Shown: positions 2,428 to 45,430 of the stretch, piece after piece
How the letters are laid out: every line of letters begins with the position of its first letter
How positions within the stretch are numbered: position 1 is the stretch's first letter
NCBI RefSeq assembly: GCF_001426865.1
Contig: NZ_LMFO01000029.1
Span: forward strand, 62,001-126,000
Source: Paenibacillus sp. Root52
GTDB lineage: Bacteria > Bacillota > Bacilli > Paenibacillales > Paenibacillaceae
DNA length: 64,000 nucleotides
Direction of reading: 5' to 3'
Position numbers and translations under genes: made by a program
Notes under the pieces: generated by a model
Databases searched by the model: none
What the model was told of the DNA's origin: nothing
Seen by the model: the letters and a program-made list of their open reading frames with translations, nothing else

Positions 2428-4104
2428 TTATGATGCTGTAACTGTAATGTTATCGATATTAGGCCCCTCTGTACCTGTTGTTACAACTCTAATGGTATTC
2501 GTTCCTGAATTCATGGGTACCTGAATGGTTTTCTCGCCCCATGTCGACCAGCTTCCTGTTGCTGAAAAAGGGGTATTGCTGATCACTTTGTTTCCGTTAA
2601 CGTACACATCGAGGTTACGCGTGCCACTCTCTAATGCATAACGAAACTTTACGTTTTTGGTACCACTTGTCGCATTGTTAATATTATTCCATTGAATGGC
2701 AGAGTTCGTTAGTGCATTGAAATTAACATACCCCGAGCCCGTGTAACCTGGGTAGATTGTCTCAACTACAGCATCAGTTAAGGTAGTTCCTGTTTCAGCT
2801 TCATACGTTGTGCCACTTGTGTTACCACTACCTGGCCCAGTGATATCCGCTACAAATGTGGTTACACTTTGAGCAGGAAGCTGTGCAGTAAATGCGCCGT
2901 TAGACACATTGATCGGTGCTCCACTTGCTAGGTTACGGCTGCTATCCGTTACCCATGAGGATACAGTAGAGGCATTACCATTTTGCAGGACGAATCGCTG
3001 ACTGGTCGCAGAAGTTCCTTTGTTAATTGCGACAACGACAACCTTGTTATCTCCTTTGTACGCAGACACAAACGTATTGGTATCCGGGTTTTTCGTTGCA
3101 TCCACTCGCAGATAGCCTGGACGTACGAACTTGGAGAATTGAGCCATATTATAACCACGTTTGCTGATCGTACCATCCTCTTTCATTGGTCCATACTGTC
3201 TACGGATATACCACCATACATAAGCCTGAAAGTCACCTTCTACCATTGCATTGTGCATGTGATGGGAAACCTCCAACGCTTCTGGCCAGCGGTCTGCAGA
3301 ATTGCTATCACTGTTTGGATAATAAACTTCGGTCATCCACAGTTCTTTGCCTGCACCTTTTTGCTTGAAGAGTGGGTAGGCAAAATTATTGACTTGAGTA
3401 CCGTACAAGTGTGCACCTAGAATGTCCATATTCGCGAGCGCTTGTGGATCATTGAGGATCGGGTCAGATATGTTTTTCAGGTATTGGAAGGATTCAGGCG
3501 CCATCACTTTGGTGTTCTGGATCGATCCTGCATTTTCTTTCATGAAACGAAGGATCTCCTGTGGTGTCCACCAGGTCCAATCATGAGCGTAATCCGGTTC
3601 ATTTTGAACGGAAATGGCATACAAGTTTACGCCGTTATCTTTCATGTACGTAACGAAGTCATTCAGGTGCTGAGCGTAAGCAGCATATTTGTCATATCTC
3701 AGACGTTTAGCATTCGTATCGCCATTCCGGTTGAAGGTCTCGACCATGTCACTTGGAGGATTCCATGGGGAGGCGAACACTAGAGCTCCTTGTTCAATCG
3801 CTCTTTTGGCTGTATCTACTTCCCTAGACCAGTTACTTCGATTAGGATCGACACTGATCCTTAAGATGGAGAAGCCTAACTGGTTTTGCCCGTTGCCAAA
3901 GGCTGTATCACGTTGAGCTGGCGTCAAGTCACCGATCCAAACCGGGTGATTAATTCCTCCGAAGCCTTTGATGAGCTGCTTCTCCGAGGATAAATTAATG
4001 GTAGCATCACTTGCTGCCGAAGCTTGTGTGGGTGTTAACATCAGTGGCAGAGCCGTTAAGCAGGCGAGTAAAACGTTAAAGGTTTTTTTGAATTTAAATT
4101 TCAC
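2428..4104 (-). CDS. xynC: Glucuronoxylanase, GH30 subfamily 8, with C-terminal carbohydrate-binding module
   Basis: Secreted endo-xylanase predicted to cut xylan near (methyl)glucuronosyl side groups. After a signal peptide (about 1-31) there is a GH30 (beta/alpha)8 barrel with its beta side domain, ending near residue 420. The acid/base Glu is in SVQNEPDY (about residue 169) and the nucleophile in WMTEVYYP (about 258). WWYIRRQYGP carries the arginine that in XynC-type enzymes contacts the glucuronate group. A short GPGSGNTSG linker leads to a CBM6/35-like domain starting YEAETGT. An ATG at 4113 abuts AGGAGG and cannot be used well; GTG 4104 has a 9-nt spacing and is preferred. The leader is long and carries a cre-like site. 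It is a single-gene unit. Confidence 0.9.
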   Translation of the reverse strand: MKFKFKKTFNVLLACLTALPLMLTPTQASAASDATINLSSEKQLIKGFGGINHPVWIGDLTPAQRDTAFGNGQNQLGFSILRISVDPNRSNWSREVDTAKRAIEQGALVFASPWNPPSDMVETFNRNGDTNAKRLRYDKYAAYAQHLNDFVTYMKDNGVNLYAISVQNEPDYAHDWTWWTPQEILRFMKENAGSIQNTKVMAPESFQYLKNISDPILNDPQALANMDILGAHLYGTQVNNFAYPLFKQKGAGKELWMTEVYYPNSDSNSADRWPEALEVSHHMHNAMVEGDFQAYVWWYIRRQYGPMKEDGTISKRGYNMAQFSKFVRPGYLRVDATKNPDTNTFVSAYKGDNKVVVVAINKGTSATSQRFVLQNGNASTVSSWVTDSSRNLASGAPINVSNGAFTAQLPAQSVTTFVADITGPGSGNTSGTTYEAETGTTLTDAVVETIYPGYTGSGYVNFNALTNSAIQWNNINNATSGTKNVKFRYALESGTRNLDVYVNGNKVISNTPFSATGSWSTWGEKTIQVPMNSGTNTIRVVTTGTEGPNIDNITVTAS

Positions 4105-4178
4105 TGCGATCATCCTCCTCGAAATGGTTATCCTGGAACTGTTAAACCGATGAAATCTTAATTTTACACAGATTTAGT

Positions 4179-4192
4179 TGTAAGCCCTTACA
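4179..4192 (-). promoter_or_regulatory. cre-like operator in xynC leader
   Basis: TGTAAGCCCTTACA (plus strand) is a perfect inverted repeat and matches the CcpA cre consensus except at one of the two central bases. It lies downstream of the proposed promoter, where bound CcpA or another LacI-family protein would act as a roadblock. Confidence 0.5.
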
Positions 4193-4195
4193 TAA

Positions 4196-4204
4196 CCTCC
4201 TTTC
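4196..4204 (-). promoter_or_regulatory. GAAAGGAGG element (STAB-SD-like) in xynC leader
   Basis: The minus strand reads GAAAGGAGG about 90 nt upstream of the real start, followed by TT and an ATG directly followed by TAA, so it cannot start a gene. The same sequence in the cry3A leader is a known mRNA 5' stabiliser that works by 30S binding. The role here is inference. Confidence 0.35.
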
Positions 4205-4255
4205 GAAAATAAAAGGAAAGAAAATCAATTTATTCTTTCTTTTGTTTATTTTAAT

Positions 4256-4284
4256 AAAATATTGTTGAACTGAATACCTGACAA
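4256..4284 (-). promoter_or_regulatory. Candidate sigma-A promoter of xynC
   Basis: On the minus strand TTGTCA (4284-4279) and TATTTT (4261-4256) are 17 bp apart. The predicted start near 4249 would give a leader of about 145 nt. Confidence 0.45.
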
Positions 4285-4450
4285 ATTTCAGGTCTTTTAC
4301 TAATTTATCTCAAATTATCGGGAATCCATGACATTTATTATCCCTATTCAGTAGTTACAAATTTTCCTTTAGTTAACTCAGACCGTTTCTTACATAGAAC
4401 TCCCTACAATATCAAACAATGAGAACACAGATCTAAGGGAGGGAATCAAC

Positions 4451-5374
4451 ATGGATAACAAAGTGAGAAGCAAGCTGTATACAAGGTTAGCGGGGTTCTT
4501 CGTTCTTTTACTACTTATTAACGTAGGATGTATGGCAGGTGGAGAGATAACGGTGGCATCTCAGGTGACAAGAGAAGCGGATACAGGGTATGCTAACGCA
4601 CTGTCGAATCATGATCGGATGCATGTTGCATCTCAACCTGAACAATCCGTAATCCCTCATAACCGTATGGCAATCATCATTGATGATGTAGGTAATGACA
4701 TGAAGGGGACAGCAGAAATCTTGGCGATGCCAGTCAAACTGACCGTTGCGGTCATGCCCTTTTTGCCAACAACTCAAAAAGATGCCGCTGCGGCACATGA
4801 GAAGGGAATGGATGTGATTGTACACATGCCCATGGAGCCGAAGAAAGGAAAACCGGAGTGGCTGGGGCCAGGAGCTATTACGTCCAATCTAACTGATGAG
4901 GAAGTCCGTGAACGGGTGGGAAAAGCAATTGATGATGTCCCGTATGCCATTGGCATGAACAATCATATGGGTTCTAAGATTACTTCGGACAAACGGATCA
5001 TGTCGATTGTGTTGGACGTATGCCGTGAGCGAGGTCTCTTTTTTGTAGACAGTCGAACCAATTTTCGCTCGGTAGTAGGTGAACTGGCCGCGTCCAAAAA
5101 TATGCCACCTGTCGGTAATGACATCTTCTTAGACGACCAGAACTCTAAGCCGCACATTCGCAAGCAAATGGAACTGGCCGCTAAGCGTGCCGTGGATAAA
5201 AAAAGCTGTGTAGTCATCGGTCATGTCGGTCACACCGGGCTTAACACATCTGCTGTTCTTCGTGAAACCGTCACCCAACTACAGGGACAGATTGAATTTG
5301 TGGGCATTGGTGATCTGGTGCGAGAGGTGTGGGATTGGCATATTGCGCCTACACTACCGACAGGTAATAAATAA
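4451..5374 (+). CDS. Divergent polysaccharide deacetylase family protein (YibQ-like)
   Basis: Exported protein of 307 residues of the divergent polysaccharide deacetylase (DUF610/YibQ) family, whose substrate is unknown. The N-terminus is a signal or anchor segment (about 12-32), with a cysteine in INVGCMAGG that could serve as a lipobox, though L-3 is replaced by N. The domain starts at RMAIIIDDVGND, the usual double-Asp motif. Other marks are VIVHMPMEP, IGMNNHMGSKIT and LFFVDSRTNFRSV, with the His/Asp positions typical of the fold. AGGGAGGG precedes the ATG with good spacing. Its 3' end overlaps the convergent amidase gene by 26 bp. Both neighbours act on the wall or surface glycans, which supports a wall role. 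Confidence 0.82.
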   Translation: MDNKVRSKLYTRLAGFFVLLLLINVGCMAGGEITVASQVTREADTGYANALSNHDRMHVASQPEQSVIPHNRMAIIIDDVGNDMKGTAEILAMPVKLTVAVMPFLPTTQKDAAAAHEKGMDVIVHMPMEPKKGKPEWLGPGAITSNLTDEEVRERVGKAIDDVPYAIGMNNHMGSKITSDKRIMSIVLDVCRERGLFFVDSRTNFRSVVGELAASKNMPPVGNDIFLDDQNSKPHIRKQMELAAKRAVDKKSCVVIGHVGHTGLNTSAVLRETVTQLQGQIEFVGIGDLVREVWDWHIAPTLPTGNK

Positions 5375-6125
5375 TGCCGTTTGCGATGGATTCAGCAATG
5401 CGCTTTTGCTCGGCGGGATCACTTATTTTGGCTCGGTCTGTTGCATTACTCAAAAATCCGGTTTCAACAATGACGGCAGGATGTTTCACATAATTCAACA
5501 GGTAAAAGGGTTTACCCCAAACGACTTGCCGTTTAGTTCCATATAAGTCATTCATGGCATCTTGAATCGATTGTGCTAAGAGGTAGCTTCTACCTTCTTT
5601 TTGGTGCAGTACCACCGGACCGTGTGTTGCAGCTCTTGAACTCCAATTGGCATGGATACTGACAACGATATCCGTACTGACTTCTTCGCTGAGGCTTTTG
5701 CGCTGTGCTAAATCTCTGCGATGCCGTGAGCGGCTGTTAAGCCAGCGGTTATCATCGCTGAGCGCATAATCACCAAGTCGGTTGATAATGACAGCATATC
5801 CTTTGCTACGCAACAGAAGATAAACCTTTTGACTTATAGCGAGGTTAATGTCCTTCTCCAGCACACCTTGTGCTGACGTTCCTCCATCGACTCCTCCATG
5901 ACCTACATCAATTAGGATTACGGGAGCTGCGAAGGCATGATGGCTGGAGCGATAGGCTTCACCGTCGGTTATTGGTAACATGGATGGACTGTTCGTTGAG
6001 GGGCTAGCTTGGATGGGGGTAACAGATCCGACTTGTTGGGCTGACTGTCCCTGAACAAGTGGAAGAATCGGAAGACATAACAAGCTAACTAGCAAAGTGG
6101 TCGAAGCAACCAGCAGCTTATACAT
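5349..6125 (-). CDS. N-acetylmuramoyl-L-alanine amidase, Amidase_3 family (CwlD-like)
   Basis: Zinc amidase that removes the peptide stem from N-acetylmuramic acid. It has a signal peptide (about 1-28), a Ser/Pro-rich stretch and one Amidase_3 domain from about residue 75 to the end. Zinc ligands are visible as His in LIDVGHGGVDGG, Glu in VLEKDINL and His in VVSIHANW. The catalytic Glu is in AVIVETGFLSN. The length (258 residues) and the single domain resemble CwlD, the amidase that makes muramic lactam in spore cortex, but there is no SLH or SPOR domain to confirm the role. ATG 6131 is only 3 nt from AAGGAG; ATG 6125 (9 nt) is preferred. It overlaps the YibQ-like gene tail to tail. Confidence 0.87.
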   Translation of the reverse strand: MYKLLVASTTLLVSLLCLPILPLVQGQSAQQVGSVTPIQASPSTNSPSMLPITDGEAYRSSHHAFAAPVILIDVGHGGVDGGTSAQGVLEKDINLAISQKVYLLLRSKGYAVIINRLGDYALSDDNRWLNSRSRHRRDLAQRKSLSEEVSTDIVVSIHANWSSRAATHGPVVLHQKEGRSYLLAQSIQDAMNDLYGTKRQVVWGKPFYLLNYVKHPAVIVETGFLSNATDRAKISDPAEQKRIAESIANGIIYYLSVV

Positions 6126-33040: not shown

Positions 33041-33074
33041 GGTCACCAGAGTAGTAGTTAGAGGTCACCAAAGT
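33041..33074 (+). promoter_or_regulatory. Two GGTCACCAnAGT direct repeats, proposed YesN-type operator
   Basis: GGTCACCAGAGT at 33041-33052 and GGTCACCAAAGT at 33063-33074 are 22 bp apart, two helical turns, the spacing favoured by AraC-type activators on half-sites. The second copy ends 3 bp before the -35. A third copy is found with the same placement at 36951. Confidence 0.62.
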
Positions 33075-33077
33075 GCA

Positions 33078-33107
33078 TAGACAACGGAAAGCGAGCATGA
33101 TTACAAT
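33078..33107 (+). promoter_or_regulatory. Promoter of the first sensor kinase operon
   Basis: TAGACA (33078-33083), an 18-bp spacer and TACAAT (33102-33107). The weak -35 directly follows the proposed activator site. Confidence 0.5.
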
Positions 33108-33185
33108 GAACATGCCATCATAAGGAAGAAAAATGGAAAAAAAGGCGATCTATCTTGTACGTGAATAAGAAAGAACAAGCATTGT

Positions 33186-33199
33186 TGATAACGTTTACA
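33186..33199 (+). promoter_or_regulatory. cre site in the leader of the first kinase operon
   Basis: TGATAACGTTTACA matches the CcpA cre consensus at all defined positions. It is downstream of the promoter, a roadblock position. Its location supports the later start codon chosen for the kinase. Confidence 0.58.
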
Positions 33200-33253
33200 A
33201 TTGTGGGTTATGCCAAGAAGATTTTAATGCTGAACAAAAAAGGGCGGTCATCT

Positions 33254-35050
33254 ATGAACTTCATCCGTTCATTACGTTTCAAATTTATTGTTGGTCTGAC
33301 ACTCATCATGCTGCCCTTGTTTCTGTTGATGTACTATAACAATGTGTACGCCATGAATGTTGTACGTGATCAAGTATCGCTTACGAGTATGAATCATCTA
33401 GTCAAGAGCGTTGAACAAAATGAACGAGTCCTTCAAGAAACGAATCGTTATCTATATAGCTTGGGTGAACGCGACCCCGATATCATTTCCTTGTTTTTTC
33501 TAAAATACGGCAGCGGGGATTACATTATTGCTAAGCAACGGATTATGAATAAATTCATGACAGATATTGGCTTCTACAATCTGATCGATTCCTTCTTTTT
33601 ATACGACGCCATAAACGATGATCTATTACTCGCTACCTCCGGTGATTACGACATCAAAATGTCGCTCGTGCAGAAGAGTATGCCCGTGCAGATGCAGCAA
33701 TTCGAAGGGGATATTCAGCAGCCTGAATGGGGGATCGTCCGCGGCGAATCGAGAAATGCACTTGTGAAGACGGTTCGCATCAACCAGCAATTCTACGCGG
33801 GGGCTCTTGTGGATATGAACGCACTGAATTATCCAGAGCAATTCACGGAATCGGGAGATCGGGGTGGAGCTGTTATTGTAGGAATAGATGGGATAGCATT
33901 ATCCAATTCATCGTTGAGTGCAGATCAGATTAAGCTAGCGGCTGCCCATCTTCCAGGATTAAAGAACCCCTATCAGGTTATCTCGGAAGAAGTACCCAAA
34001 GGTAAGGCACGTCAATATTTGATGCTGGGCTTGCCTTCAGCGATGTCGAAGATGAACTACGTTGTGCTCTTGCCCGAAGAAGACATGATGCGAAACTTAC
34101 CGTTCTTCCAGCGGATTATTCGTTTGCTACCTATTGGTGCAGCTGTCATTCTTATTACTGCCCTTGTCTTTGTCCGTCAATTACTGTTCCGGCCGATGAA
34201 TATGCTCATCCGTGGTATGAGAAGGGTGAGTCGGGGAGAGCTGGATGTTAGGTTGGAGCCACCCGCTTCTTCGGAGCTGGAGTTTGTTACTCGAAGCTTC
34301 AATCAGATGACGAGTCAGATCCAGCATCTTAAGATTGATGTTTATGAGGAGCAGCTAAGAACGAGGGAAGCAGAGTTCAAGCAGCTCCAGATGCAGATTA
34401 ACCCTCACTTTTATCTGAACTCCCTCAATATCATTCATAGCCTGGCCTCTCTACAGAAGCATGAGCTGGTGCAACAGATGGCGGGGCATCTGGCTGACTA
34501 TTTCCGTTTCAGTCTGCGAGCAGGCAAACGTGTCATTAGACTTGATGAAGAACTGGAGCATATACGCCACTATTTGGAGATTCAGAAACTTCGTTTTCCC
34601 AACAAGCTTAGTTTTTCGCTGGAAGTAGAAGCTGGCCTGGGGCATTATGTGCTGCCACCGTTAACGCTACAACCCTTCGTAGAAAATTCAATTATACATG
34701 GATTCCAGCGGCGTACAGAGCCTTTTATCATTCGCATCAAAGGTCAGGGTACAGCAATCGTATCTGGTTCTACTGCAAACGATGAGGAGACAGAAGAGCT
34801 TCCGATGTTATTGATAACGATAGAGGACAATGGCGTAGGCTTCAACCAGGAGTTGCTGGATCGTTTGCAACAAGGGCAATATGCAGAAGATCCAGGGGGA
34901 CAGCATATTGGGATCTGGAATGTAGCACACCGATTGATGGTGAAATATGGAGATGTAGCCGGGCTTGCATTCAGCAATCAAGCAGATGGCGGAGCCAAAG
35001 TCGTAATTCATGTACCCGCTCAGACGGAAGAAGAAGAAGGGGGAGCCTAA
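33254..35050 (+). CDS. YesM-like sensor histidine kinase (module 1)
   Basis: Membrane sensor kinase of the HPK7/LytS-like YesM group. Helix 1 lies at about 12-32, followed by an extracellular domain (about 35-280), helix 2 (about 290-310) and a HAMP region with LIRGMRRVSRGELDVRLE. The His_kinase domain has the phospho-acceptor His in QINPHFYLNSLNIIHSL. The N box is PFVENSIIHGFQRR and the G box is IEDNGVGFNQELLD. An in-frame TTG at 33155 would add 33 residues without a good ribosome binding site and across a cre site, so ATG 33254 is chosen; its own SD (GGGCGG) is also weak. The stop overlaps the start of the next gene (TAATG), showing translational coupling with its response regulator. Confidence 0.86.
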   Translation: MNFIRSLRFKFIVGLTLIMLPLFLLMYYNNVYAMNVVRDQVSLTSMNHLVKSVEQNERVLQETNRYLYSLGERDPDIISLFFLKYGSGDYIIAKQRIMNKFMTDIGFYNLIDSFFLYDAINDDLLLATSGDYDIKMSLVQKSMPVQMQQFEGDIQQPEWGIVRGESRNALVKTVRINQQFYAGALVDMNALNYPEQFTESGDRGGAVIVGIDGIALSNSSLSADQIKLAAAHLPGLKNPYQVISEEVPKGKARQYLMLGLPSAMSKMNYVVLLPEEDMMRNLPFFQRIIRLLPIGAAVILITALVFVRQLLFRPMNMLIRGMRRVSRGELDVRLEPPASSELEFVTRSFNQMTSQIQHLKIDVYEEQLRTREAEFKQLQMQINPHFYLNSLNIIHSLASLQKHELVQQMAGHLADYFRFSLRAGKRVIRLDEELEHIRHYLEIQKLRFPNKLSFSLEVEAGLGHYVLPPLTLQPFVENSIIHGFQRRTEPFIIRIKGQGTAIVSGSTANDEETEELPMLLITIEDNGVGFNQELLDRLQQGQYAEDPGGQHIGIWNVAHRLMVKYGDVAGLAFSNQADGGAKVVIHVPAQTEEEEGGA

Positions 35051-36669
35051 TGCGGAATCTATTGATCGTGGATGATGAAGTATATGCCCTACAGGCCATG
35101 GTTGAAGGCGTGAACTGGCACTCGGCGGGCATTGATCAGGTATTTAGTGCAGGAGATGCTGAAGAGGCGCGAATAATACTGAAGCGACACGCTATCGATA
35201 TCATGATCTGTGATATTGAAATGCCTGGCGAGACAGGGCTCGATCTACAGAGTTGGGTTCTTAAGCATGATCCAGGTATGTTGACTATTTTCCTTACAGG
35301 TCATGCTTTGTTTGCATATGCGCAGTCGGCAATTAAGCTGAACAGCTTTGATTACGTGCTTAAGCCAGCTCCTGCGGATCAATTGCTCAAGATAGTAAGT
35401 CAGGCTGTAGACAAAATCAAAGCAGGTGAGCAGCGCACACATACAAATAAACTCTACGAGACCGTCTATAAACGGTGGCAGACACATAAGCCATTATTGA
35501 CAGAGCGGTTCTGGAAAGATGCGATATCTCAACGAATGACGTTGACTAAACAGCGCTTGCAGGAATTAGCCGAAGTGTATGGAGCCGAGATTGATCCGAA
35601 TGCACGAATTGTACCAATCGTCATTTCGGTGGAGGAATGGGTTCGTGAATTTGACCTTCGGGATGAAGAGGTATTGGAATATGCGCTGCGAAATGCAGCC
35701 AAGGAAATGTTGTTAGGAGACAGACCTGGTGAGGTGTTTCAAGATCATGGAGGTCTAAATATTGTGCTTGCGTATGAACAGGATGGCATCGTGGCTTCAG
35801 CGAAAGAGATGGAAAAGGATTGCCAGATCTATATTCGAGAATGCGGTACGTACTTCTATTGCCGATTATCCTGTTATGTGGGTGTCCCTGTTGCGGTTAC
35901 TGAATTACAGGGGATGCTCAATGAGTTGATGGACATGGAGCGTCGCAATATCAAGGAACTCGAAGGTGTATTTGTATACGATGAGCAAGGCCGAGATACC
36001 GAAGATCGCTTTTTACCGATTCCGTGGTTCTCCGAATTGTCCATTCTGTTCGAGACAGGCAAAGTAGGAGATTTACGTGAACGCGTCGATGAGATTTTCG
36101 AGTTGTTGGCTGGACAAGAGAGGTTGTCACCGGAGATTCTGCGACTGTACTATCATGCGATGCTTCATGTGGTATATCCTTTGCTTCATCAGAAAAATGT
36201 ATCTGTACGCAGTCTTTATCCAGGGGAACGCGAGCCGGAAGAAAGTGTCGTAACACGTTCCTTGCCCCAGTTGAAGCAGTGGACCCTAGAACTAATTAGC
36301 CGTGTGGTACCTGTGTTGTATCCAGACGATCATAGTCCAATGACGATCGTGGATCAATTGTGCATCTACATTGAGAATCATATTGGTGAAGAGCTGATGC
36401 GAGAAGAACTAGCTTCCTTTGCAGGATTTAACCCCGCGTATCTGTCTCGTCTCTTTCGGAAGGAGAAGGGCATGTCTCTTTCGGAGTTTATTTTACAGCG
36501 CAGAGTAGCGAAAGCGAAAACGTTATTATCCCAGTCTACCGTGAAGGTAACGGATATTGCGGGCAAGGTGGGATATTATAACTATTCTCATTTTACGAAA
36601 ATGTTCAAGAAGTGCACCGGCATAACCCCCCAGGAATTTCGCAAACAATCGCGTACCGTACAGCTATGA
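35050..36669 (+). CDS. YesN-like response regulator with AraC-type output (module 1)
   Basis: Response regulator of 539 residues. The receiver domain (about 1-120) has the acidic pair in LIVDDE, the phospho-acceptor Asp in IMICDIEMPGETG, and the Lys in YVLKPAPADQL. A long middle region (about 140-430) of unknown fold is typical of Paenibacillus YesN proteins. The C-terminal AraC domain has two HTH units: EELMREELASFAGFNPAYLSRLFRKEKG and VKVTDIAGKVGYYNYSHFTKMFKKCTG. It starts inside the kinase stop codon. It probably activates the transporter operon at 37065 and its own operon through the GGTCACCAnAGT sites (inference). A hairpin terminator overlaps its stop. Confidence 0.86.
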   Translation: MRNLLIVDDEVYALQAMVEGVNWHSAGIDQVFSAGDAEEARIILKRHAIDIMICDIEMPGETGLDLQSWVLKHDPGMLTIFLTGHALFAYAQSAIKLNSFDYVLKPAPADQLLKIVSQAVDKIKAGEQRTHTNKLYETVYKRWQTHKPLLTERFWKDAISQRMTLTKQRLQELAEVYGAEIDPNARIVPIVISVEEWVREFDLRDEEVLEYALRNAAKEMLLGDRPGEVFQDHGGLNIVLAYEQDGIVASAKEMEKDCQIYIRECGTYFYCRLSCYVGVPVAVTELQGMLNELMDMERRNIKELEGVFVYDEQGRDTEDRFLPIPWFSELSILFETGKVGDLRERVDEIFELLAGQERLSPEILRLYYHAMLHVVYPLLHQKNVSVRSLYPGEREPEESVVTRSLPQLKQWTLELISRVVPVLYPDDHSPMTIVDQLCIYIENHIGEELMREELASFAGFNPAYLSRLFRKEKGMSLSEFILQRRVAKAKTLLSQSTVKVTDIAGKVGYYNYSHFTKMFKKCTGITPQEFRKQSRTVQL

Positions 36670-36697
36670 CGCAGCATGCTGCGTCTTTTGTATTTTT
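36668..36697 (+). terminator. Terminator of kinase/regulator operon 1
   Basis: GACGCAGCATGCTGCGTC is a perfect palindrome followed by TTTTGTATTTTT. Its left arm overlaps the TGA stop codon. Confidence 0.75.
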
Positions 36698-36704
36698 AGA
36701 AGTT

Positions 36705-36870
36705 GTTCAAAAAGTCCGATTTTGATTACGAAGGATGCCTAATGGCATCTCAGCGTCGAATATGGGATTCAACCGAAATGTCCGTTGCTCACGTAGGTTT
36801 GCCTACGCTCCGCTACTCCATTTCTAGCTTCATCCCATATTCTCGGTACTGAAAAGCGAACTTTTTGAAC
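36705..36870. mobile_element. 166-bp palindromic MITE-like element
   Basis: Terminal inverted repeats begin GTTCAAAAAGTCCG at the left and end CGAACTTTTTGAAC at the right. Inside, GAATATGGGAT/ATCCCATATTC (11 bp), GAAATG/CATTTC and GTAGG/CCTAC nest into one long hairpin. No coding capacity is present. Partial copies of the same end occur at 26346, 36888 and 56317. This is the form of a non-autonomous miniature transposable element, or a REP-like intergenic repeat. It lies between the YesN gene and the transporter operon promoter. Confidence 0.75.
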
Positions 36871-36887
36871 TTCAATTGTAAGAGGTT

Positions 36888-36910
36888 GTTCAAAAAGTCC
36901 GCTTTTGAAC
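36888..36910. repeat. Second, short copy of the MITE-like end
   Basis: GTTCAAAAAGTCCGC is followed by TTTTGAAC, making a short inverted repeat 17 bp beyond the full element. It could be a solo end or a deletion derivative. Confidence 0.6.
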
Positions 36911-36950
36911 ACGAATTTATACGAGAAAGTCATAATTTGATCATTGAACA

Positions 36951-36962
36951 GGTCACCACAGT
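36951..36962 (+). promoter_or_regulatory. GGTCACCAnAGT site at the transporter promoter, proposed YesN operator
   Basis: GGTCACCACAGT is the third copy of the element seen at 33041 and 33063. It ends 3 bp before the -35, exactly as at the kinase promoter. A degenerate half-site (AGTCATAAT) lies about 23 bp upstream. Confidence 0.6.
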
Positions 36963-36965
36963 AGA

Positions 36966-36994
36966 TATTGGATCAGAACTCACAGCCGTATACT
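36966..36994 (+). promoter_or_regulatory. Promoter of transporter operon 1
   Basis: TATTGG (36966-36971), a 17-bp spacer and TATACT (36989-36994). The poor -35 fits an activator-dependent promoter. Confidence 0.48.
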
Positions 36995-37064
36995 TGAACC
37001 ACAGGAGACACAATCGGTGCTAAGTCCTGAGGAAGAATTCAAGAGGAGTGAGGGAGAAGAGGCT

Positions 37065-38051
37065 ATGAAGACACAACCCGAGACGGGTAATCGCGCACGG
37101 ATATCAGATGTAGGAGCGGGGTCAGTTCGCAAACGTAAATCGGTCTTGTACAATCTTGGAAAGTTTAAGGTGCTGTATCTCATGTTTCTGCCAGGGATTC
37201 TGTTTCTCCTGGTGAACAACTATATGCCAATGTTCGGCGTACTCATTGCATTCAAAAATGTGAATTATGCCGACGGTATCCTAGGTAGCCCTTGGAGCGG
37301 ATGGGATAACTTTAAGTATTTGTTCTCCACGAGTGACGCGTGGGAGATCACGCGGAATACACTTGCGTACAATACCGTGTTCATCGCACTAAATCTATTT
37401 GTCGGCGTAGGCCTCGCGATCTTGCTGAATGAAGTTAAGAACAAGGCCATGTCGAAATTATACCAATCACTTATGCTGCTGCCTTATTTCTTATCCATGA
37501 TTGTAGTCAGTTACCTGGTACTTGCGTTCCTGGGTAAGGATTCGGGGTTCATGAACTCTACCATATTACAGATCTTTGGTGGACAGCCAATTGACTGGTA
37601 CTCTGAGCCGAAGTACTGGCCTTATATATTGCCACTGGTGAATACGTGGAAGAATATAGGATATTATGCCGTCATTTATCTGGCAGCCGTCGTAGGCATT
37701 GATGAGGAGTATTATGAAGCGGCCGTCTTGGATGGAGCGACGAAATGGCATCAGATTCGTTTCATTACGGTACCGTTTCTCATTCCGTTGATTGTCATTA
37801 TGACATTGTTACAGATTGGCCGTATATTCTATGCAGATTTCAGTTTATTCTATCAGGTTCCATTAGAATCGGGTGCGCTGTTCCCTGTAACGAACGTACT
37901 TGATACTTATGTGTACCGTACATTCTTGGTCGGCGGCGATATAGGAATGTCCTCTGCTGCAGGTCTCTATCAGGCTATTGTCGGCTTCGTGCTTGTTTTG
38001 GTATCCAATACCATCGTAAGACGAATAGACAAAGATAATGCATTATTTTGA
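37065..38051 (+). CDS. ABC sugar transporter permease, LplB-like (module 1)
   Basis: Integral membrane permease of a CUT1-type sugar ABC importer, about 328 residues with six membrane segments. The N-terminus FLPGILFLLVNNYMPMFGVLIAF is the usual LplB first helix. The EAA cytoplasmic loop reads YYEAAVLDGATKWHQIRFITVPFLIP, where the ATPase docks. ATG 37065 was chosen; an in-frame GTG at 37017 would add 16 polar residues. It is the first gene of an operon with a second permease and a binding protein. No ATPase gene is present nearby. That is usual for Paenibacillus and Bacillus CUT1 systems, which share a common MsmK/MsmX-type ATPase encoded elsewhere. Confidence 0.87.
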   Translation: MKTQPETGNRARISDVGAGSVRKRKSVLYNLGKFKVLYLMFLPGILFLLVNNYMPMFGVLIAFKNVNYADGILGSPWSGWDNFKYLFSTSDAWEITRNTLAYNTVFIALNLFVGVGLAILLNEVKNKAMSKLYQSLMLLPYFLSMIVVSYLVLAFLGKDSGFMNSTILQIFGGQPIDWYSEPKYWPYILPLVNTWKNIGYYAVIYLAAVVGIDEEYYEAAVLDGATKWHQIRFITVPFLIPLIVIMTLLQIGRIFYADFSLFYQVPLESGALFPVTNVLDTYVYRTFLVGGDIGMSSAAGLYQAIVGFVLVLVSNTIVRRIDKDNALF

Positions 38052-38068
38052 GAGGGGGCAAGTCAACT

Positions 38069-38977
38069 GTGAAAACACGTGATCCATTGGCCGTTTCGCG
38101 GCGTTCCGCTTCAATTATTCACGGCATGTTTCTCTTTTACGCCATAGCCTGTATCGTGCCGATCCTGCTTGTCTTCGCCATCTCTTTCTCGGACGAAACA
38201 ACAGTAATCGCAAACGGCTATAAGTTAATTCCTGAGAAGTTCAGTCTGACAGCTTATGAGTTTTTGTTCAAGGATATGGATCAGATCATTCACTCCTACG
38301 GCATTTCCATCATTGTAACTGTGGTGGGAACGATTACGAGTGTGGCTCTGACTGCACTGTATGCTTATCCGCTCTCACGTAGAGATTTACCATACCGAGG
38401 ATGGTTCGCATTCTTCATCTTCTTCACTATGTTGTTCAATGGTGGATTGGTACCGTGGTATCTCGTATATGTGAATGTGCTTGATTTGAAAAATTCGATT
38501 CTGGCACTTATTTTGCCGCTGCTTCTATCACCGTTCTTCGTACTCGTTATGCGGACGTTCTTCGCGAATTCGATCCCAGTTTCCATACTGGAATCAGCAC
38601 GAATCGATGGAGCGGGTGAGCTGAGAACGTTTACACGCATTGTACTTCCGCTCTCACTTCCAGTTATGGCAACGGTTGCACTCTTTAGTACGCTTAATTA
38701 CTGGAATGACTGGTATTTAAGTATGATCTTTATATCGGATAACCGGACGATCAGCCTTCAGTACCTGATGTACCGAACGCTGCTCGATATTCAATATTTA
38801 ACTTCTAACTCGAATGTGTCCTCACAGATTTCATCACAGGGTGGATTGCTGAATCTACCGAACAAAACATTGCAGATGGCAATGGCTGTAGTCGGAATTG
38901 GACCTATTGTGCTAGCCTATCCGTTCTTCCAACGGTATTTCATCAAAGGGCTTACCGTAGGTGCAGTGAAGGGCTAA
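38069..38977 (+). CDS. ABC sugar transporter permease, LplC/YtcP-like (module 1)
   Basis: Second permease of the CUT1 importer, about 302 residues with six membrane segments. It shows the LplC-type pattern: FLFYAIACIVPILLVFAISFSD at the first helix, NGGLVPWYLVYVNV, and the EAA loop SILESARIDGAGELRTFTRIVLPLSLP. The end QRYFIKGLTVGAVKG is a family hallmark. GTG 38069 follows GAGGGGG at a good distance; the in-frame TTG at 38048 is too far upstream. It is 17 nt after the first permease and pairs with it in the membrane. Confidence 0.87.
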   Translation: MKTRDPLAVSRRSASIIHGMFLFYAIACIVPILLVFAISFSDETTVIANGYKLIPEKFSLTAYEFLFKDMDQIIHSYGISIIVTVVGTITSVALTALYAYPLSRRDLPYRGWFAFFIFFTMLFNGGLVPWYLVYVNVLDLKNSILALILPLLLSPFFVLVMRTFFANSIPVSILESARIDGAGELRTFTRIVLPLSLPVMATVALFSTLNYWNDWYLSMIFISDNRTISLQYLMYRTLLDIQYLTSNSNVSSQISSQGGLLNLPNKTLQMAMAVVGIGPIVLAYPFFQRYFIKGLTVGAVKG

Positions 38978-39101: not shown

Positions 39102-40631
39102 TTGGTTAAAACATTAAAGGTATGGCCGCGACTTGCGGCGGCAGTCATGGCACTGAGTCTCGTGCTCGCAGGCTGTTCAACGGATAAGAGCGGAACAACA
39201 ACGCCTGGTGCAGAAGGCGGAGGTGCAGCAGAAGGTGGAGGGAAGCCTTATGAAGTAACGCTGTATTATCCAGGAACACCACAGAAGGATGTTGCCTTGG
39301 TAGAAGCTGAGATCAATAAAAAGATGGAACCGAAAATCGGAGCAACGCTTAAGATTAATGCGATCGACTGGGGACAATGGGACAATAAGTTGAATCTGAT
39401 GATATCCTCTGGTGAGAAATCAGACATTATCTTCACAGCAGCGTGGCAGAACTACACAGTCAATGTTGCCAAAGGAGCTTTCCTGCCGCTGAACGATCTG
39501 CTTGAAGAGCATGGTCAGGACATTAAGAAAAATCTAGATCCAGCCTTCCTCGAGGGTTCACAAGTAGATGGGGTCAACTATGGTGTACCAACGAATAAGG
39601 AACTTGCGGCAACGCGTGGTGTGCTCGTGCGTCAGGATCTAGCTGACAAATATAAGCTAGATTTAGCAGCGGTGAAAACATGGGCAGATCTAGAGCCTTT
39701 GCTCAAAACCATCAAGGAAAATGAACCAGGAATCACACCGTTCTACATGTCCAATACCAACGGTAACGGATTGTTAGAAAATCTGGATTGGGATTACCTC
39801 GGGGATGCATCTGTACCAGGCGTTATCTCGAAGACAGCAGGCTCCACAACAGTATTAAACGAAGTGGAGACGGCAGAATTCAAGGAAGCTGCTGAACTTG
39901 CCCGTAAGTGGTACCAAGCAGGATATATCAATAGTGATGCAGCTACATCCAATGTGTTCCCGAAAGACCAAGCCAAAGCAGGCAAAGCATTCATGTGGAC
40001 AGACGGTATGAAGCCAGGTAAAGATAAGGAAGAGGAAGGCTATGTTGGCTTCCCGCTCACACAGATCGAAATGACTCAACCAACAATTACAACGGGTGAT
40101 GCTTCCGGTGCGATGCTTGCAATCTCCCGCTCTTCTGAGCAACCGGAGAAAGCGATGCAAGTAATCAACCTGTTGCACTCTGATAAAGAAATCAACAACT
40201 TGCTTAATTTCGGTATTGAAGGTCAGCATTTTGTCAAAAAAGACGGAGCAGAAAACATCATCACACTGCCTGATGGTGTAGATGCGAACAGCCGCACTTA
40301 CAATCCAGGCGCACAATGGCAGCTCGGTAATCAATTCCTGAACTTCCTCTGGGATAATGAAGACCCTCAGAAGTGGGAGAAATTCAAAGAATTTAATGCC
40401 AAAGGTGTGAAGTCACCTGCCTTAGGATTTACATTTAACAGCCAATCGGTCAAAAATGAAATTGCTGCGGTGAACAATGTGAACAAACAGTTTAAACCAG
40501 GTATGACATCTGGAGCAGTAGATCCAAGCGAGATGATCCCTAAATACTTGGAAAAACTGAAAGCCGCAGGAATTGATAAGATCATTGCAGCGAAACAGGA
40601 ACAACTGGATGCATTCCTTTCCAAAAAATAA
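39102..40631 (+). CDS. Extracellular sugar-binding lipoprotein (module 1)
   Basis: Substrate-binding lipoprotein of the ABC importer, 509 residues, family 1 type. The signal peptide ends with the lipobox LVLAGC, with the lipidated Cys near residue 25, then a Gly/Thr/Ala-rich flexible tether. The mature part begins YEVTLYYPGTPQKDVALVE, and contains GEKSDIIFTAAWQNY and a hinge region near NTNGNGLLENLDWDYLGD. It resembles LipO/YtcQ-type proteins. The start is TTG 39102 with GGGAGGGG five bases upstream. The ligand is unknown; relatives bind oligosaccharides from plant polymers. A terminator at 40703 closes the operon. Confidence 0.87.
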   Translation: MVKTLKVWPRLAAAVMALSLVLAGCSTDKSGTTTPGAEGGGAAEGGGKPYEVTLYYPGTPQKDVALVEAEINKKMEPKIGATLKINAIDWGQWDNKLNLMISSGEKSDIIFTAAWQNYTVNVAKGAFLPLNDLLEEHGQDIKKNLDPAFLEGSQVDGVNYGVPTNKELAATRGVLVRQDLADKYKLDLAAVKTWADLEPLLKTIKENEPGITPFYMSNTNGNGLLENLDWDYLGDASVPGVISKTAGSTTVLNEVETAEFKEAAELARKWYQAGYINSDAATSNVFPKDQAKAGKAFMWTDGMKPGKDKEEEGYVGFPLTQIEMTQPTITTGDASGAMLAISRSSEQPEKAMQVINLLHSDKEINNLLNFGIEGQHFVKKDGAENIITLPDGVDANSRTYNPGAQWQLGNQFLNFLWDNEDPQKWEKFKEFNAKGVKSPALGFTFNSQSVKNEIAAVNNVNKQFKPGMTSGAVDPSEMIPKYLEKLKAAGIDKIIAAKQEQLDAFLSKK

Positions 40632-41609: not shown

Positions 41610-41666
41610 GATTATATAGCTAGAATTAGTGCAGAAATATTGACTTTGTGACCTGTATCTTACGCT

Positions 41667-41839: not shown

Positions 41840-43609
41840 ATGTCATATCGGACAAACCTATTTTCCAAGATGGTTATTTTGATTTTAATTATGTTAATTC
41901 CTGTCGTATTGCTCTATTGGTATTCCAATCACAAAACAACAGCTGTGCTTCGGGATGAGCTCAATCGCTCAAACAGCAATCAGCTTGAGTTCTTTCAGAA
42001 TCAGGTGAACACACATATTGAATTGTTATCATCATGGCCGAACCTGCTCATTCATGATCCCGATATTGCTAGCTTTCGACGGATCTTTGCAGATAGCTCG
42101 TATTTTGATCTGGATACCATCAATCTTGTAAAACGAATTCAGAACAAGTTAAGCATTCAGGAGAGCTCCTCTAACTGGGAGACAAAATTGTATTTATACT
42201 CCCCTTCCTTGGGCAGGGTTGTATCTGAACGGGACGCCCGCTCATATGACAAGCTCTCCTTACAGAATTCAATCTCTTCGGGCTGGGACGTACGCCGAAT
42301 TGCTGGTGTAGCAGGAGAGGATGATCGCTTCATGTTCAGCTGGATTACGGTATCGCCCTATGGGATTAGTGACCCGGCAGTGAATGCGGAAACGATCATT
42401 AAACTGGAGTTTGATAGCAGCAACATCCGTGACATGTTAGACAAGTTTAAAGATGACGGAAGGCACGACCCCTTCTATTATCGCGAAGATGCAGGGGTCA
42501 TCTATAATCGTACCTCGGATCGAACGCTAACCGGCCAACTTATCAATCAATTGTCCATTCATCAGCTGAAGGATGTGGACAATCGAACTGTTGTTATTGA
42601 TGGGGATCCTTACATGGTCAACACGGTGAAATCAAGCACAACAGGCTGGTATCTGGTTGATTATATGCCGCTGTCAGCGATTTTGAAGCCGATTCATCAA
42701 TCGAATCTATTGTTTTATTCCTCGATGCTCTGCCTATTTCTAATGAGTTTTCTGGCAGCCTATATGTTATATGTTCAGGTACAGGTGCCGGTCAAGCAAC
42801 TTATTCGTGGTTTCCAGCGCTTGAAGCAGGAGGATTATTCTGTTCGTATTCAGCCTAAAGGACGTAATGAATTTAGCTTTCTGTCCGAACGGTTCAATTC
42901 AATGGTAGATCAGATTCAGCAGTTGTTTGAACATGTGTATTTGGAACGAATACATGTGCGTGAAGCTAGACTGAAGCAGCTACAGTCACAGATTAATCCG
43001 CATTTCTTCTATAATTGCTTCTCGTTTATTACCAGTATGGCTAAGCTCAAACGGGTGGATGCCGTCGTGGCGATGTCACATAATCTGTCTAGATATTATC
43101 GTTATACAACGAGACAGGAACGGGATGTCGTACCACTTACAGAGGAAATCGAATTCGTGAATTGTTATTTAGAGATTCAGAAGATGCGTATGGATCGCAT
43201 TCACTACACCATTGATTTATCCGAAGATATACTGCTGCAGGAAGTTCCACCACTGATTGTTCAGCCATTAGTAGAGAACGCAGTGATTCATGGGATTGAG
43301 GCAGATGCTGAGGCGGGAGAGATCAAGGTTACGGGTGAATGCCGCGATGGAATGATGATCCTTCAGGTCGAGGATGATGGTCAGGGGATGAATGCAGAAG
43401 GGCGAGAAGCTCTGCTGTTAAAACTCAGAGGAACGATGGATCAGGAAATGGGCTGTGGTCTGTGGAATGTGAACCAGCGTTTGCAGCTGAGATATGGTGA
43501 GAAGGCAGGTCTTCATATTGAGGAATCTCAGCTTGGCGGATTGCGAGTGACGTTAAGATGGCCTGTGAGTGAAGAGAAGATTACAGAATTACAGGCGCCG
43601 ATGGATTAA
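41840..43609 (+). CDS. YesM-like sensor histidine kinase (module 2)
   Basis: Membrane sensor kinase of 589 residues, paralogous to the module 1 kinase. The first helix is at about 10-28, an extracellular sensor domain at about 30-285, and the second helix at about 290-312. A HAMP region (PVKQLIRGFQRLKQEDYSVRIQ) follows. The phospho-acceptor His is in QINPHFFYNCFSFITSM, the N box in PLVENAVIHGIEAD and the G box in VEDDGQGMNAEGRE. AAGGTGA lies upstream of the ATG. A sensed ligand outside the cell, such as a galacto-oligosaccharide or a loaded binding protein, is inferred from the downstream genes. It is the first gene of a kinase-regulator pair. Confidence 0.86.
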   Translation: MSYRTNLFSKMVILILIMLIPVVLLYWYSNHKTTAVLRDELNRSNSNQLEFFQNQVNTHIELLSSWPNLLIHDPDIASFRRIFADSSYFDLDTINLVKRIQNKLSIQESSSNWETKLYLYSPSLGRVVSERDARSYDKLSLQNSISSGWDVRRIAGVAGEDDRFMFSWITVSPYGISDPAVNAETIIKLEFDSSNIRDMLDKFKDDGRHDPFYYREDAGVIYNRTSDRTLTGQLINQLSIHQLKDVDNRTVVIDGDPYMVNTVKSSTTGWYLVDYMPLSAILKPIHQSNLLFYSSMLCLFLMSFLAAYMLYVQVQVPVKQLIRGFQRLKQEDYSVRIQPKGRNEFSFLSERFNSMVDQIQQLFEHVYLERIHVREARLKQLQSQINPHFFYNCFSFITSMAKLKRVDAVVAMSHNLSRYYRYTTRQERDVVPLTEEIEFVNCYLEIQKMRMDRIHYTIDLSEDILLQEVPPLIVQPLVENAVIHGIEADAEAGEIKVTGECRDGMMILQVEDDGQGMNAEGREALLLKLRGTMDQEMGCGLWNVNQRLQLRYGEKAGLHIEESQLGGLRVTLRWPVSEEKITELQAPMD

Positions 43610-43687
43610 GAGCAGATGTGATGTATGACTATGAGGATGTGCAATGAGAGCTAAGAAATGCAGCGTTGAAGATGAGGAGTGTATAAA

Positions 43688-45307
43688 TTGATTGATATTT
43701 TATTGGTGGATGATGAGACGTATGTAACAGAAAGTCTGGAACTAACGATCCCTTGGGGTGAGCTTGGGGTAACGACAGTGTTTCGTGCTGCTTCTGCAAA
43801 AGAAGCATTAGCGATTATGGAAGAAAATGCAGTGGACATTGTAGTGACAGATATTCGTATGCCAGGCATGTCGGGACTGGATCTTGTTGCAGAAGTCAGT
43901 ACCCGTTGGTCGCATATCCGTTGTATTTTGTTAACAGGTCATAGTGATTTTGAATATGCGAAAAAGGCGATTCAGTTGCAGGCAGCCGATTATATTCTCA
44001 AACCAGTTAACGATGATGAATTCATGGCATCCGTATCCGCAGCGATCACGTCACTTCGAGATGAATGGGATGAATTCGATAAATATCACCGCTTATTATA
44101 TAGCCGCAAGTCCGATTACAAAATTCTGCGCGAAAATTTGATGCATGATCTATTGTTAGGACGTGAGATTACAGCTCGGGCACTTGGTGAACAGTTGCAG
44201 CAGTACGAGATTCAACTGGAACCGGAACAACCAGCTGTTATGATGTTAATTCGTCTTGCCGGTCGATTCTCAAGTATGGATCAACAATCATTAGATCTGA
44301 TGGATTTTGCGGTGGGAAATATCGCGGAAGAGGTGTTTGGTCCACAGTTTAATGTTTGGTTTGGTCATGGCCCTCATGAATGCCTAGTCATGTTGATACA
44401 GCATCAGAACTTAAACGGAGCCGAAGCGATGATTCTGGACGAGATTAAGGAACCTACCGCTACCTTCCGGGAGCATGTCATTCGATATTTGCAGGGAGAT
44501 ATCTCTATGGTCGTAACGCAGCCGTTTGCTTTTGAAGAACTAACGACGGCATATCGCCGGGGATTAGGCTCACTTGTGCTTACAGGACCAGAGGAGAATA
44601 TGATTCAGTATCTGGATGCTAACACGACCAAGCGCTCCGATAATGATGCGCAGGCATTGGATGAGCTATACAAGCCGCCAGTTCTGCCTCAATTGCTGGA
44701 AACCAAACAGTGGGAGGCAGCCGCACGTAAGCTTGAGGCTGTATTTGATGAGGCAGAGCGTGTGCGATTGTCACGAGAACATGTCTATGAGATGTATTTA
44801 TCCGTAACGAATGCATTTATGTATATTGCACATAAACAGGGACATCTCGTACATGAGATTGATCATGCCGGCTTTGACTTGCTCTTGGCACATCAGTTGA
44901 TTCAATCACCTGAGAAGCTGCGCCGCTGGGCAACAGAAATGTTAACCAAGCTCCAAGAAGAACTATCTGATCAAGAAGGAACACAGAGCCGAAGACATGT
45001 TATTAAACAAGTTCAAGAGCTAGTAACCCGTGAAACAGGGCAAGAGTTATCTGTGAAGATGATTGCGGACAAAGTGTACTTGCATCCAGTATACCTATCC
45101 AAAATCTATAAGGCAGAAACAGGAGAGGGTCTAGGGGACTATATGATTCGCATGCGGATGGAGCGTGCATTGTATCTGCTCAAAAATACGAACAAAAAGA
45201 TATACGAGATTACGAGTGAGCTTGGGTACCAAAATCCTCAATATTTCAGCAAAATGTTTAAAAAACATTACGGGATGACCCCAAATGAGTATCGAGATCA
45301 GTCGTAA
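43688..45307 (+). CDS. YesN-like response regulator with AraC-type output (module 2)
   Basis: Response regulator of about 539 residues. The receiver domain has ILLVDDETY, the phospho-acceptor Asp in IVVTDIRMPGMSG, and YILKPVNDDEF. A variable middle segment occupies about 130-430. The C-terminal AraC DNA-binding domain has HTH units in LSVKMIADKVYLHPVYLSKIYKAETG and KIYEITSELGYQNPQYFSKMFKKHYG. TTG 43688 with GAGGAG eight bases upstream is preferred over GTG 43679, which is too close to that site. It most likely activates the galactan genes that follow. The AraC part differs from that of module 1, so it is expected to use a different operator. Confidence 0.86.
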   Translation: MIDILLVDDETYVTESLELTIPWGELGVTTVFRAASAKEALAIMEENAVDIVVTDIRMPGMSGLDLVAEVSTRWSHIRCILLTGHSDFEYAKKAIQLQAADYILKPVNDDEFMASVSAAITSLRDEWDEFDKYHRLLYSRKSDYKILRENLMHDLLLGREITARALGEQLQQYEIQLEPEQPAVMMLIRLAGRFSSMDQQSLDLMDFAVGNIAEEVFGPQFNVWFGHGPHECLVMLIQHQNLNGAEAMILDEIKEPTATFREHVIRYLQGDISMVVTQPFAFEELTTAYRRGLGSLVLTGPEENMIQYLDANTTKRSDNDAQALDELYKPPVLPQLLETKQWEAAARKLEAVFDEAERVRLSREHVYEMYLSVTNAFMYIAHKQGHLVHEIDHAGFDLLLAHQLIQSPEKLRRWATEMLTKLQEELSDQEGTQSRRHVIKQVQELVTRETGQELSVKMIADKVYLHPVYLSKIYKAETGEGLGDYMIRMRMERALYLLKNTNKKIYEITSELGYQNPQYFSKMFKKHYGMTPNEYRDQS

Positions 45308-45430
45308 TTACAACATCATTCCAGAATATAGGTTGGCAAAGGTGCAGAAATCTTGATTTCGTATCATAGGAACAAAGGCCCGGCCAGCCTATAATGAAAG
45401 GGTAACCAAAACGATTGAAGGGGGAACAAC

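Follow-up and report, generated by a model that had tools for sequence, protein, structure and literature searches.

A conserved tandem element as the candidate operator of a YesN-type regulator at its own operon, an ABC importer and an unlinked GH9–GH48 cellulase operon in Paenibacillus

Which genes does the YesN-type regulator of a Paenibacillus two-component module control, and through which DNA sequence? We examined a 64,000-nucleotide stretch of the Paenibacillus sp. Root52 genome (hereafter the window), in which the plus strand of module 1 encodes a YesM-type sensor histidine kinase (33254–35050; HAMP and His_kinase domains), its proposed cognate YesN-type response regulator with an AraC DNA-binding domain (35050–36669; Response_reg and HTH_18), a terminator-like hairpin 3′ of the regulator gene (36668–36685, a consensus match only), two ABC permeases (37017–38051 and 38048–38977, both BPD_transp_1) and a solute-binding protein (39102–40631; SBP_bac_1 and DUF3502). 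The kinase open reading frame opens at TTG 33155 and its best start is ATG 33254, which is kept in alignments of relatives; the first permease frame begins at GTG 37017 and its start is perhaps ATG 37065. With a Pfam receiver domain (PF00072) at residues 5–116, a C-terminal AraC helix-turn-helix (PF12833) at residues 454–533 and an adjoining YesM-type kinase, the 35050 product is a regulator of the YesN type. The module's single binding-protein gene sits in the importer operon, and module 1 is not a three-component system of the CuaDSR type: the kinase and regulator are the only plus-strand open reading frames of at least 150 amino acids between the kinase promoter (P1) and the permease promoter (P2), with no sensor-only binding-protein gene among them. 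The solved structures closest to the binding protein (5swa, 5mlt and 5suo) do not indicate cellodextrins.

The original prediction placed the regulator's operator in a 12-bp sequence, GGTCACCANAGT, occurring twice before the kinase gene and once before the permease operon. The 12-mer is present without mismatch on the plus strand at 33041, 33063 and 36951, and a genome search found it nowhere else in 6,628,015 bases, so the exact sites are not spread over the genome. Since about 2.7 exact copies are expected from the base composition of the window, three copies are unremarkable in number. Their placement is out of the ordinary, all of them falling within 4 kb in two promoters that flank one regulator gene. 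Allowing up to one mismatch yields 69 genome matches versus 112 for the reversed pattern, and loose versions of the 12-mer, being no commoner than this control, therefore carry no meaning. The nearest 12-mer starts 39 bp before the −10 box at P1 (33063 to 33102) and 38 bp before it at P2 (36951 to 36989), the distances that had been claimed.

Within P1, the distal half-site spans 33041–33052 (core GTCAC at 33042–33046) and the proximal half-site spans 33063–33083 (core GTCAC at 33064–33068), ending in an ATAGACA sequence (33077–33083) that overlaps the −35 box TAGACA (33078–33083); the −10 box TACAAT (33102–33107) was assigned from a promoter scan and from its distance in relatives. The P2 proximal half-site (36951–36971) has its core GTCAC at 36952–36956 and ATA at 36965–36967, enters the −35-like sequence TATTGG (36966–36971) and is followed by the −10 box TATACT (36989–36994), placed by alignment and by its distance in relatives. 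P2 had been credited with a single site, which proved incorrect: a distal half-site, GTCATAATTTGAT at 36929–36941, stands 23 bp ahead of the proximal core and is conserved in the alignment and pattern scan of relatives. All of these features lie on the plus strand. The description of both −35 boxes as poor fits TATTGG at the permease promoter but not TAGACA at the kinase promoter, which matches at five of six positions and scores 10 of 12 together with its −10 box in the promoter scan, a tool whose matches by themselves are no evidence (four in this region, compared with an average of 8.1 in shuffled sequence).

Comparison across relatives of the regulator, 78 named loci in all, defined the element that is conserved. 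The close clade comprises 26 loci (L031–L056) with regulators 84–99% identical to that of the window, or 27 loci with the window itself; one of them, L045, ends short of the kinase promoter, leaving 26 of 27 that hold P1. Alignments of P1 and P2 together with a pattern scan revealed a tandem pair, GTCAY-N18-GTCAC-N8-ATA, in which the half-sites are 23 bp apart (22 bp in the P1 of the window) and the proximal half-site enters the −35. Paired cores are present at P1 in all 26 loci holding this promoter, with 17 bases instead of 18 between them in the window and in L031, and at P2 in 26 of 27 loci, the exception being L048 with 17 bases between cores and a proximal GTAAC. They stand as islands amid diverged upstream DNA, and their conservation in the P2 promoters of relatives indicates that P2 likewise carries two half-sites. 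We discarded the idea that the 12-mer is itself the operator, as relatives mostly lack it and keep GTCAY and GTCAC at 23 bp, and as copies with up to one mismatch do not outnumber the reversed control.

A slightly loose form of the paired pattern (N17–19) gave five matches in the genome of the window: P1, P2, a third promoter on another contig and two others. At the third promoter, a TATAAT box follows the second core at 36 bp; downstream come a GH9–CBM3 gene and then a GH48–CBM3 gene, each with its CBM3 found by domain search. The inner part of this cellulase site, AACAATGTTATT, is unlike P1 and P2. The two remaining matches were taken as chance, C23:252698 having no same-strand open reading frame of at least 150 amino acids wholly within its 3-kb stretch and C32:159039 lying inside an open reading frame. 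A strict search of nine genomes returned 25 matches, 22 of them at P1, P2 or the cellulase promoter, and the element was found in every one of the 30 cellulase loci fetched out of 45 GH9 matches. Directly 5′ of the GH9–GH48 operon in the genome of the window is a gene that resembles, by eye, a methyl-accepting chemotaxis protein gene (4032–5780 of locus L144).

Distance and conservation were measured over 82 promoters scanned on both strands, representing 24 distinct sequences for P1, 25 for P2 and 30 for the cellulase promoter. Among loci with the core pattern, the second GTCAC precedes the −10 box by 38 bp in 25 of 26 P1 promoters (37 bp in the other), by 37 bp in 26 of 26 P2 promoters and by 36 bp in every one of the 30 cellulase promoters. 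Mean major-base frequency per 10-bp block in the operator region was 0.67–0.93 for P1, 0.91–0.99 for P2 and 0.91–1.00 for the cellulase promoter, compared with 0.40–0.62, 0.40–0.81 and 0.52–0.71, respectively, across ten upstream blocks; because the sequences were picked by a pattern that requires the cores, only the bases between the cores are free evidence in this comparison, and the blocks at and directly 3′ of the −10 are conserved too. Orthologous promoters thus keep the element at a constant 36–38 bp from the −10. The predicted direct repeat of about two helical turns next to the −35 is borne out in the close clade, with a conserved core and spacing that differ from the proposed 12-mer, and a 22–23-bp direct repeat whose second core lies 36–38 bp before the −10 is the arrangement of an AraC-type activator operator.

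Strict matches across 75 same-genus genomes numbered 140 in 50 genomes, versus 14 for the reversed control. Sorted by hand, 46 fall at P2, 43 at P1, 43 at the cellulase promoter and eight elsewhere, placing 132 of 140 at the promoters of the yesMN kinase gene, the permease operon and the unlinked GH9–GH48 operon. The eight others comprise a near-same sequence in G000, G034 and G064 and single matches in G007, G014, G036, G037 and G046. These matches elsewhere count against the operator reading; one of them, common to the genome of the window and two near relatives, lies inside a coding region. More operons than these three may belong to the regulon. A regulator match at 1e-100 occurs in 56 of 75 genomes, 48 close (at least 84% identity, counting as close the partial matches of G005 and G050) and eight distant (43–45%), and no strict match was found in the eight same-genus genomes with distant regulators. 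Strict P2 is present in 46 of the 48 close-regulator genomes and absent in G010, which has the GTAAC change seen in L048, and in G011. Strict P1, with 18 bases, is present in 43 of 48; non-strict forms have 17 bases in the genome of the window and in G034, as in L031, and 17 bases with a GTAAC proximal core in G037, and in G036 the contig ends before the promoter.

GH9 is detected at 1e-40 in 45 of 75 genomes, and the cellulase element occurs in exactly the 43 genomes that have both a close regulator and GH9 (43 of 43). Five genomes with a close regulator and no GH9 match (G012, G022, G046, G071 and G072) have kept P1 and P2. The two genomes with GH9 and no regulator match, G017 and G023, had no strict matches, and a looser 2-kb scan 5′ of their GH9 genes was empty; this contrast is weak because these GH9 genes have diverged, being only 76% identical over residues 28–196 alone with the N-terminus unmatched, and they may not be the same gene as the GH9 of the cellulase operon. 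As the clade is narrow, these genome counts are not independent events: shared descent confounds regulator, GH9 and element, with essentially one clade and two informative exceptions, which counts against the operator reading.

More distant relatives carry related tandems. In L057, L058 and L059 (53, 45 and 46% regulator identity) a tandem followed by ATAGA precedes the permease operon, with both cores GTCAT in L057 and seven bases, not eight, from core to ATA in L058 and L059. In L060–L062 with L068 and in L063–L066, GTCAT is followed 22–23 bp on by GTTAC before the permease operon, as seen by eye, in what from its sequence is likely a variant operator; this tandem stands about 25–90 bases past the regulator stop in L060–L066 and L068. 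A search for the GTTAC variant in 11 genomes gave one match each in five and none in six, four of the five right behind the regulator and the fifth coinciding in coordinates with one of these (G044), and found no further promoter with the variant in these genomes. We found no paired core before the kinase genes of L057–L071, so that autoactivation, part of the original prediction and in line with the paired cores at P1, is supported for the close clade only. No GH9 relative was returned at 1e-30 in the genomes of L057–L059, L063, L066, L067, L069 and L071, an empty answer that is not evidence of absence.

The first recognition helix of the regulator is presumably close to NPAYLSRLFKKE, a placement taken from AraC structures; the corresponding sequence varies little among L057–L071 and differs in the regulator of a second YesMN module in the window (module 2). 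We tentatively raise the possibility, short of an expectation, that a GTCAY/GTYAC tandem at 22–23 bp could be a common operator code of the YesN subgroup with this helix, with inner bases specific to each subgroup. If true, sequence would reveal the regulons of many orphan YesMN-importer modules and the substrates they serve, and cellulase or hemicellulase operons at unlinked positions could be assigned to their sensors. In a lag test on distant YesN genes (52 loci, of which eight without a downstream open reading frame were dropped, leaving 44 in 32 clusters), 12 clusters had near-repeats at lag 22, where 40 shuffles averaged 4.6 and never exceeded 10, and nine had them at lag 23, where the shuffles averaged 4.4 and reached 9 at most. 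This result is no more than suggestive, because shorter lags such as 11 and 12 were raised too and the shuffles preserve base composition alone.

The YesN protein encoded at 35050–36669 is the best candidate to bind the element: P1 and P2 flank its gene, its DNA-binding domain is 95–100% identical across the 26 close-clade loci, genomes with the unlinked cellulase element also have the regulator, and AraC domains found at 1e-20 elsewhere in the genome of the window are only 37–44% identical to it. We conclude that the element is probably the operator of this protein, acting as an AraC-type activator of yesMN, the importer and the GH9–GH48 operon, with a cellulose product as the probable signal. 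The proposal of one YesN activator for the kinase and permease operons is thereby supported by the conserved element and its geometry, and gains a third, unlinked target. In the proposed mechanism, the operator would be a direct repeat of two half-sites with cores 22–23 bp, or about two helical turns, apart, each composed of a GTCAY core and, about 8 bp later, an ATA or TTGACA-like box, a layout that would fit the two helix-turn-helices of one AraC domain. The proximal half-site would overlap the −35 in the arrangement of an AraC-type activator dimer, such that a YesN dimer activated by the YesM kinase would bind and aid RNA polymerase from the −35 edge at yesMN itself, the neighboring ABC importer and the unlinked GH9–CBM3/GH48–CBM3 operon. 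That the signal would be a cellulose breakdown product is suggested by the cellulase target together with the CuaDSR and AviRS systems; such products could be seen by the kinase directly or via the binding protein of the importer, and in the simplest physiology the response would raise sensor, importer and cellulases together.

We consider it unlikely that YesN acts at P1 and P2 only and that the cellulase promoter is under another AraC-type regulator with a similar site preference. The divergent AACAATGTTATT would suit such a division, as would the large number of AraC-type domains in the genome (127 first-look candidates), yet no other domain found at 1e-20 exceeds 44% identity to that of YesN, and neither the C23 nor the C32 match stands before an AraC-type regulator among the listed open reading frames. 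Relatives of the L060 type indicate that related regulators can use related cores; set against a separate cellulase regulator is the missing cellulase element in both genomes with GH9 but without the regulator, tempered by the divergence of those GH9 genes. Repression, or binding by a wholly different protein with YesN as a coincidental neighbor, is improbable. A regulator gene adjoining its site is circumstantial evidence, but in 82 promoters the site begins upstream of the −35 and runs into it, 36–38 bp before the −10, which is the usual place of AraC-type activators, and a different binder is further opposed by the occurrence of the unlinked cellulase element in genomes having the regulator and by the near-invariant DNA-binding domain in the clade. 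That the 12-mer reflects chance, as its expected copy number would allow, or common promoter ancestry devoid of a regulatory role is very unlikely given the footprints, with paired cores kept at constant −10 distances in three promoters that otherwise differ.

The circuit proposed here, in which YesN would activate its own operon, an importer and cellulases, resembles known systems. In E. coli, AraC at araI1–I2 likewise binds direct-repeat half-sites about two turns apart with the proximal one overlapping the −35, at a spacing of 21 bp and as a one-component regulator without phosphorylation, versus 22–23 bp and a two-component system here. The YesMN-type systems AraPST, XynDC and GanPST of Geobacillus stearothermophilus adjoin oligosaccharide importers and serve arabinan, xylan and galactan. 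This kind of circuit is already known from AviRS and CuaSR. According to the available text on Caldicellulosiruptor bescii, the cellulose/cellobiose pathway has a two-component regulator, AviRS, whose predicted targets for activation are a CUT1-family ABC importer and the secreted cellulase gene celD, and three of five AraC-domain two-component regulators have tandem repeats with large spacers 5′ of the promoter; the same text describes the celA1 locus as without a dedicated regulator (PMC8579813). CelA is described in a separate abstract as a GH9–GH48 enzyme. In Paenibacillus the shared element precedes the two-component operon, the importer operon and a cellulase operon, over which the system would exert similar control; unlike AviRS, whose celD target lies in the same cluster, the site here is carried by an unlinked GH9–GH48 operon and by the regulator's own promoter. 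CuaR, a 538-amino-acid response regulator of the YesN/AraC type in Ruminiclostridium cellulolyticum, responds to cellobiose by activating a cellodextrin ABC importer; its target shown in the available text is cuaABC-cbpA, for which no operator sequence appears there (PMC5663094, PMC10384115). CuaDSR differs from module 1 in having a dedicated sensing binding protein, CuaD, and a constitutive operon of its own, where module 1 has no sensor-only binding protein. Candidate motifs of the YesN-type regulators YesN and RR07 of pneumococcus come from promoter comparison. For pneumococcal YesN, the available text reports that a clear repeat motif did not emerge, and the pneumococcal RR07 motif CTWWWWWWAG is unlike the GTCAY/GTCAC element (PMC11034029).

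In the open-access literature, which leaves subscription journals mostly outside, we found no description of this circuit, of its operator or of a regulator of Paenibacillus GH9–GH48, the available text of PMC10766802 likewise offering nothing, and as far as that literature shows, the operator, the unlinked GH9–GH48 target and the Paenibacillus circuit are new. Together, these data suggest that the sensor helps switch on cellulose digestion. For the GH9–GH48 pair, whose element is present in 43 of 75 same-genus genomes, they put forward candidates for sensor, regulator, operator and importer. The YesMN-importer module, otherwise anonymous, gains a likely class of substrate, and a defined operator is proposed for a member of a regulator family that has few clear motifs.

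Two further repeated sequences lie in the window. Two copies of GTTGTTCAAAAAGTCCG, starting at 36702 and 36885, stand in the interval that separates the regulator gene from P2 (within 36702–36910). The sequence is missing from most P2 alignments of relatives, and a similar one occurs 5′ of the kinase gene in L035, L037, L041 and L044; GTTGTTCAAAAAGTCCG is possibly a small mobile repeat that entered right before the operator. Module 2 consists of the second YesMN pair (41840–45307), two permeases and GH53 and GH42 enzymes, which we take to suggest galactan use. It has a shared element of its own, GTGCAGAAATNTTGAYTT, at 41629–41646 and 45342–45359, the sole exact copies in the genome, upstream of the module 2 kinase gene and of a 562-amino-acid open reading frame at 45431 that has no Pfam match and occupies the place of a binding-protein gene. 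Since the genome has no other exact copy of GTGCAGAAATNTTGAYTT, every YesMN module may have its own operator.
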